Of a stretch of DNA of 64,000 nucleotides, positions 7,800-44,422 are shown piece after piece (position 1 is the first letter of the stretch; every line of letters begins with the position of its first letter). The stretch comes from Pseudaestuariivita atlantica (GTDB lineage: Bacteria; Pseudomonadota; Alphaproteobacteria; Rhodobacterales; Rhodobacteraceae): assembly GCF_001205715.1 (NCBI RefSeq), contig NZ_AQQZ01000004.1, forward strand, positions 1 to 64,000, read 5' to 3'. The notes beneath the pieces are model-generated. The model was not told the origin of the DNA. It was given only the letters and a program-made list of their open reading frames with translations, and did not search any database. Position numbers and translations under genes: made by a program.

Positions 7800-7976
7800 G
7801 GGGGGCGCGGGCTTGTGATCCCGAGGTCGCCTTGGCGGGGTCGCAAGCTATTCAGGAGAAACAGCAATTCGCGCCAGGATCGCCGATGACCCCTTCGTGT
7901 CTGGAAACCCGGTGAAACAGGTGTGTTAAGGGCGCGCAGGAACGCCACGATAAATCTTACCGTCTGATCTCGCACG

Positions 7977-8928
7977 TCATCGTGCGACAGACAGGCGGAA
8001 CTCTGGTTCGCTTGGCTGTGCAGCGATGTTCGCGTTCAAGCGGGCATGAATAGTTCTGGGAACCAGACGCGACGCCGAAATGCGTGGATAATCCATTTCG
8101 CGAATTGGCCTGCCTTCCCCGTATAGCGCCACATATTCAGCATAGTTACCAAAGTGTTGGCGGCCAACATAGTCGACATAGGTTTCAGCAGGCACGCCTT
8201 CGGCCAGAACAAGATCGTGGTCTTCGGTTTCGATGTGGTAAACCCTGTACTGACCATCGAATTCAGAAAGTGGCACGTAATCGATACTGGAGCCATTTAC
8301 GAGTTGGCCCGCGTTGATGAGGTATCCGTCGACCAGCAATGCATGATCCGAGGTCAGGACCAGATCCCGCTCCGGAAGGCCGTCACCCAACGCGCCGGCA
8401 CGTACACGGACGGGCATCAAACGCTCTGCGGGGCCAAACATGGTGAAGACGGTTTGAATGAAATTGAAACGTATCGGCACCACGCGACCATCATGGGTCG
8501 AAACCAGATCACCTACCTGCAAGTCCTCGATTCTTCGGGGGCCCTTCGGGGTAGAAATCTCTGTCCCTTCGGCGAAACAGGTCACCGCATATGGTCTGAG
8601 ATCGATTTCCGGCAAGGTATCGGGAAACACCTGGTTAGGGTTCGGGCTAAAAATAGTCAGAAAACCGGAGCCGTTGAGTGCAACCCCTACCGGCGTTATC
8701 CATCCCCCCCCCAAGGTCCACGGTACCCACCATTTCGAGCGTAAAAAGCCTCAATCCACCTGACCAGACGTCCATGTTTATTCCGGTCAAAAAAGTTACG
8801 GGATTGGCTGAATTGAAGGGAAAACCGTTCTCTTGGATCACAAAGCCGGTAGCAGGGCTGCTAAGCAAGAGTTCACCGCTACCACTATAAAGTGCATTGC
8901 TTTCGAAGTCATATCGCGCAAAGTACAT
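7977..8928 (-). pseudogene. Hint-domain protein, frameshifted at a G9 tract
   Basis: Two frames together encode one protein of about 316 residues. The first (ATG 8928) runs through a beta-rich N-terminal part up to VGTVDLGGG; the second continues as WITPVGVALNGSG and holds a Hint (hedgehog/intein) domain: nucleophile CFAEGTEISTPKGPRRIEDL, then LTSDHALLVDG, then VGRQHFGNYAEYV. With eight G residues instead of nine at 8704-8712 the frames join exactly. Such Hint proteins are usually secreted or surface proteins with predicted self-processing. Codon use and GC are lower than in the flanks. The break may be mutation, sequencing error or phase variation. Confidence 0.7.
8704..8712 (-). repeat. Homopolymer tract (G9 on coding strand)
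   Basis: Nine consecutive C on the plus strand, read as G9 within the Hint-protein gene. The tract lies exactly where the reading frame changes. Removing one base restores a continuous 316-codon frame. Confidence 0.9.
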
Positions 8929-9318
8929 AAGAAAATCTCCCTAATATGATTCATCATATGAAATTTTCGTTATAGCTCAAGCTCTTTGCGACTATTGCGT
9001 GGCAACGGCTCAGGTGGGTTCGAAAGGTTGAAATTGGCGACTGTTCAAGGTCCAATATCCGCACATCTTTCAGTTGAATTTATTGCGGCCACTATCTCTT
9101 CACGATTTCAACACACCTGTTTTTCCTAAAAATTCTGCCTTAATTACATTCCATGACATAATTATTAAGGGAACTTTCTTGCCTAACTTAAAGCTGAAAA
9201 TTGGGGAGGAACGGACCTTCGACAGCATTTTGCAACTCGGTTGCGAGGGACTCCAAACGGACCTTAGTGCTGAATCGCCGAACACCGACTCTTCCTGCCG
9301 CGAATCCATCCACCCCCT
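8929..9318. other. AT-rich intergenic stretch, no gene seen
   Basis: This 390-base interval is visibly more AT-rich than the rest of the window and holds only short open frames with no recognisable protein features. No inverted-repeat insertion-sequence ends or transposase motifs were seen. It separates the Hint gene from the truncated 3' end of dnaE2 and may be the residue of a transferred segment. Confidence 0.5.
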
Positions 9319-43764: not shown

Positions 43765-43829
43765 CGTGAAAAATCTCTTCCGTTTTTCACGATGCGAATG
43801 TGGCGTGAAAAATCAAGAAGAATTTTCAC
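43765..43829. promoter_or_regulatory. Double inverted-repeat operator for the XRE-cupin regulator
   Basis: Two dyads share the half-site CGTGAAAAA. The first is CGTGAAAAA-N9-TTTTTCACG (43765-43791); the second is CGTGAAAAAT with right arm ATTTTCAC (43804-43829). Left arms are 39 bases apart. They lie 10-75 bases upstream of the regulator's start, covering the expected promoter. Confidence 0.65.
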
Positions 43830-43966
43830 ACGCGGGTTTGGCCGAGAGAAATTTCGTGAAGGTCGGCCCGTTAGGGCGTCGTTACTTGTTTCCTGCCGTC
43901 AGGTTGGTCCCTTGATCGAGGCCGAACTGCTCATTTTCTAGGGCGAAATGAGCAAATTGAGCAGAA

Positions 43967-44422
43967 TCACCGCGCAAACGTCGCGTCGAGGATGGCCGCC
44001 AGCCCCTCGGCATCTTCGGCGTCAAACGCGGCCGGTTGATCGCTGTCGATGTCCAGAACCGCGATCAGATCGCCGCCCTTGTTGCGCACCGGAAGCACGA
44101 TTTCCGACCGGGTCGACGAGGCGCAGGCGATATGCCCCGGAAAGGCATCCACGTCGTCCACCAACTGCACTTCACCCGTCCGCGCGGCGGCGCCGCACAC
44201 ACCCCGGCTGAAGGGGATCACAAGGCAGCCATGCCCGCCCTGGTACGGCCCGATCTTCATCAATTCCGGCTCTGTGACGCGATAAAACCCTGTCCAGTCA
44301 AAGCGTTGGTCGCTGTGGTGGATCTCGCAGGCCAGCGTCGCCATCAGTGCGACCTCGTCCGTTTCACCCTCTGTCAGCGCCGCGATCTGCTTGGCGAGGT
44401 CGCCGTAATCGACGCGGCTCAC
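43967..44422 (-). CDS. msrC: Free methionine-(R)-sulfoxide reductase (GAF domain)
   Basis: A 151-residue single GAF-domain enzyme. The three cysteines of fRMsr are present in GCLVIPFSRGVCGAAA and DAFPGHIACASSTRSEIVLP, and DWTGFYRV matches the substrate-binding strand. It repairs free methionine sulfoxide using thioredoxin or glutaredoxin. GTG 44420-44422 overlaps the thiolase stop by four bases, so translation is coupled; the long upstream frame is a shadow of the thiolase gene. Confidence 0.87.
   Translation of the reverse strand: MSRVDYGDLAKQIAALTEGETDEVALMATLACEIHHSDQRFDWTGFYRVTEPELMKIGPYQGGHGCLVIPFSRGVCGAAARTGEVQLVDDVDAFPGHIACASSTRSEIVLPVRNKGGDLIAVLDIDSDQPAAFDAEDAEGLAAILDATFAR

Follow-up and report, generated by a model that had tools for sequence, protein, structure and literature searches.

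Simple-sequence contingency loci are phase-variable genes that carry poly-G or poly-C tracts, as in Neisseria (PMC5084427), and a poly-C tract is likewise described in mga of group A Streptococcus (PMC10330708). On the protein side, the closest described systems are the Hint_2 proteins of Alphaproteobacteria and the related hedgehog/Hog and bacterial intein-like (BIL) domains (PMC2362128, PMC5874633). Here we analysed a window of 64,000 nucleotides from Pseudaestuariivita atlantica (contig NZ_AQQZ01000004.1, positions 1 to 64,000), in which a single Hint_2 gene is broken at a tract of nine G (Table 1).

Table 1 Features of the split Hint gene and its surroundings in the window.
Feature	Position	Strand	Evidence or description
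Whole Hint gene, split into two frames	7977..8928	-	tract, frames, PF13403, N-terminal motif
N-terminal frame, 93 codons	8647..8928	-	ATG 8928, TAG 8649-8647; motif at residues 4-18
C-half stop-free frame	7977..8750	-	open 8750-7980, stop 7979-7977; PF13403, alignment A1
G9 tract (C9 on +) at the frame break	8704..8712	-	sequence, genome run count, frame map
Frameshift interval with both frames open, 101 nt	8650..8750	-	frame map
AGGGAG Shine-Dalgarno-like sequence, 8 nt before ATG	8937..8942	-	CATATTAGGGAGATTTTCTT-ATG
Low-G+C island (43-57%), 1.5 kb	7800..9318	.	flanked by genes for a class-III aminotransferase and an error-prone DNA polymerase (both ~67-70%)

One gene divided at a nine-G tract

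No stop codon interrupts the N-terminal frame between 8940 and 8650 or the Hint frame between 8750 and 7980. The two frames are offset by one base, so that any single frameshift joining the two must fall within the 101 nucleotides in which both are open. The G9 tract lies in the middle of this interval. Given five runs of at least nine G in the 4.34 Mb genome, the chance of finding such a run in a given 101-nt interval is about 1e-4, and the frame geometry together with this rarity placed the break at the tract. The N-terminal frame follows the correct protein frame as far as the tract and then reads 18 off-frame codons to its TAG, while the C-half frame contains the end of the variable N region, the Hint_2 domain and a conserved C-terminal tail. 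The first-pass annotation had located a homopolymer at the break and had calculated that the two Hint halves would join if the tract had eight G; both the position and the frame arithmetic were correct.

The C half matched Hint_2 (PF13403) with an E-value of 1.6e-34 over model positions 1-145 of 147, scoring 119.8 bits against a gathering cut-off of 28.4. The N frame gave no Pfam match and no good match among 61 relatives, and a profile of the intact paralogues did not match it over its whole length; the N region of the Hint_2 family is highly variable. At its beginning, however variable the region, the N frame of the window gene carries ARYDFESNALYSGSG, which agrees with the N-terminal motif seen in intact homologues, e.g. 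ASYDFNSAALYTQNG in L111 and ATFDYFSAALYAPTD in L002. When scored with a matrix from 11 homologues, which were chosen by a pattern without the window sequence but after that sequence had been seen, none of 50,000 shuffles scored as high, and an earlier, noisier set of mixed N-termini had given a weak signal (119 of 20,000 shuffles). The distance from the motif to Cys1, calculated from coordinates, is about 113 codons, compared with 102-134 in those 11 intact, motif-bearing homologues. Since the N half carries the family motif, both halves are one gene, and the motif, the Hint_2 match and the single frame step bear out the original description of one Hint protein in two halves. The motif and the frame geometry also ruled out a pair of unrelated neighbouring ORFs. 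An antisense ORF at 8154-8744 (+) was rejected as the real gene, as it has no Pfam match whereas the Hint frame has homologues.

Intact relatives and the Hint domain

The proposed search for an uninterrupted protein was productive: about 85 homologue matches with long open frames were found, including ten intact paralogues in the same genome, of which seven stand in tandem on contig C1 (L031), two on C23 (L032) and one on C53 (L033). Close relatives occur in 22 of 394 genomes family-wide, sampled at about one genome per genus, with the best being 61% identical. The genus comprises two genomes, and in the other one (69% complete) we found no close relative or orthologue; the gene beside the DNA polymerase there differs from the Hint gene. 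The shorter homologue L100 was considered as another candidate for a broken gene; on inspection it seems intact, its N region being naturally short. No run of G or C longer than 7 was present in 44 homologue and paralogue frames examined, and a switch conserved across the family was ruled out by these homologues lacking the tract.

Two tandem arrays deserve a separate description. Seven Hint_2 genes occupy 2704-12754 of L031 (G000:C1:358000-374000), with N regions 20% identical on average and Hint halves 66% identical, and five lie in L034 (G006:C2) of another genus, with corresponding values of 31% and 73%. In both arrays the N regions are strongly diverged, the Hint halves are alike and the flanking genes are unrelated, a layout like that of hedgehog-related families. 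The family-matched genes beside the paralogue array are housekeeping ones (aconitase, cytochrome c assembly), and the earlier suggestion that the protein is probably surface-exposed found no support.

In alignment A1 the C half is 38-50% identical to 16 intact relatives and retains the invariant positions of the alignment, including C46 (Cys1) and T121-x-x-H124, the pair that marks the N-terminal cleavage site of autoprocessing Hint domains. No further stop interrupts the Hint frame from 8750 to 7980, and no other disabling mutation was found in the gene. The HN dipeptide is absent after the ANG/AEG block of the window protein, and an invariant Asn190 follows. A profile comparison gave a distant match to the solved BIL domain PDB 2lwy (E 8e-4), and the predicted structure of the Hint half was set aside for its low confidence (pLDDT 46). 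Self-processing by this domain is plausible from Cys1, T-x-x-H and the distant 2lwy match. Beyond the Hint_2 model, outside the Pfam-matched stretch, residues 181-232 of the window protein in A1 form a conserved tail, F-D-N-x-x-E-Y-L-A-L-Y-G ... P-R-I-S-x-x-R-x-V-P.

Long homopolymers can make polymerase slip, and transcriptional or ribosomal slippage at the tract could yield some full-length protein from the present allele. The gene carries no further lesion, in keeping with this reading, but the homologues have no conserved tract, and we regard it as very improbable.

Age and origin of the split gene

The G+C content of the Hint half at codon positions 1 and 2 (0.66/0.42) is similar to the values for the ten paralogues (0.68-0.72/0.42-0.49), and at the third position it is 0.57 compared with 0.77-0.88. 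Because Cys1 and T-x-x-H are kept and the first two codon positions resemble those of the paralogues, the break is probably young, and the gene was probably under protein-level constraint until recently. An old decayed pseudogene is disfavoured by the absence of further stops in the Hint frame and by the conserved family residues.

The low GC3 and the low-G+C island probably reflect acquisition from a source of lower G+C content, which is the simplest reading; alternatively, an older, dying gene under relaxed selection could also show a low GC3. The ends of the island carry neither direct repeats nor tRNA, and the island is absent at the corresponding place in the congener. No phage match and no plasmid DNA match was found, plasmid matches being confined to the protein level at less than 60% identity, and a phage or plasmid origin was set aside on these grounds.

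Candidate causes and comparison with known systems

The genome (4.34 Mb, 56 contigs) contains 16 runs of at least eight G and five of at least nine. Expected numbers of the latter, from order-1 to order-6 Markov models trained on 94 kb of the genome, were 16-87, so that these runs are 3- to 17-fold rarer than expected. Four of the five lie inside or at the edge of intergenic gaps, the one on contig C45 overlapping a GNAT frame just at its mechanically assigned 5' end, and the Hint-gene tract is the only one well inside coding sequence. Runs of at least eight G are strongly under-represented as well (16 observed, 76-307 expected), as though selection acted against slippery tracts. The longest run of the genome, ten C at 1535-1544 of L073 (G000:C45), is flanked by a gene for a GNAT acetyltransferase and a divergent gene of the isocitrate/isopropylmalate dehydrogenase family, and it could affect the spacing of a promoter or the GNAT gene at its 5' end.

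A nine-base homopolymer is a classic place for sequencing or assembly errors, and a miscalled tract length would mean that the gene is intact. The intragenic G8 tracts in L065, L067, L070, L072 and L076 all lie within open frames; the polymerase gene, mutS, mutL and the ten paralogues have uninterrupted frames, and long frames cover the remainder of the window. All of this weighs against an error, although a run of nine is not probed by any of it. Such a run inside a gene occurs here only, and the error rate rises with run length; on balance we consider an error improbable. Within a densely coded part of the window, one stretch of 590 bases (43829-44419) has no clear coding frame.

The first-pass annotation had read the homopolymer as the classic form of a slipped-strand phase-variable gene. 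Under selected phase variation, tract length would vary in the population and turn the Hint protein ON and OFF, so that cells would differ in one member of a diversified family. The homopolymer lies exactly at the break and within the reading frame, it is the one long G run deep in a gene, the Hint domain is undamaged and the gene is one of a family of diversified paralogues, all of which are consistent with this proposal. Instead of being over-represented in the genome or the gene class, however, long tracts are depleted genome-wide, and no homologue or paralogue examined has a tract longer than 7, which speaks against a dedicated switch. Both mutS and mutL are present, open and intact, and in the open-access literature we found neither poly-G phase variation in this group nor a phase-variable Hint_2 gene. 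The one-step break at G9 and slippage at the tract as its natural origin stood, while switching itself was unsupported, and selected phase variation appears unlikely, if still the strongest of the competing accounts. That a marine-type alphaproteobacterium would have a poly-G contingency gene toggling one hedgehog-like Hint family member, a switch of a sort that we did not find in the literature of the lineage, is rather doubtful.

The most likely reading, with about an even chance of being correct, is that this Hint gene was acquired recently and that slippage at an unstable tract has left the sequenced allele OFF. The gene is a lone member of the hedgehog-like Hint_2 family (variable N region, Hint domain, conserved tail), probably acquired recently, beside the ten intact paralogues elsewhere in the genome. 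Slippage at the tract between N region and Hint domain, a natural origin for the break that the evidence supports, would shift the frame, so that translation stops 18 codons on without the Hint domain and the allele is OFF, and the tract would render this change mechanically reversible. A selected ON/OFF switch fits the evidence no better than a young loss of function made by slippage at a chance mutation hotspot, with no selection for switching.

If the tract does switch, simple-sequence phase variation would extend to the Hint_2 family, and a cell-surface or social role for the family would be indicated. If it does not, the locus would neatly illustrate a frameshift at the sole G>=9 tract deep in a gene, in a genome otherwise avoiding such tracts.

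The window protein shares with the Hint_2 (PF13403) proteins of Rhodobacterales and other Alphaproteobacteria a Hint domain with Cys1 and T-x-x-H, a variable N region and a conserved tail, but the window copy alone is split by a frameshift and its GC3 is below that of the paralogues. Its Hint domain is related to those of hedgehog/Hog and BIL proteins, and the hedgehog arrangement of an N-terminal cargo followed by Hint is also seen in the window gene. Nevertheless, the window protein is distant from them and has no visible C-terminal His-Asn dipeptide, with self-processing predicted from sequence. Compared with the contingency loci of Neisseria and the mga tract, the tracts of this genome are depleted rather than enriched, and the tract is not conserved in homologues. 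What the Hint gene has in common with those loci is a homopolymer in the reading frame, a frame step of one base and a gene that is otherwise undamaged.
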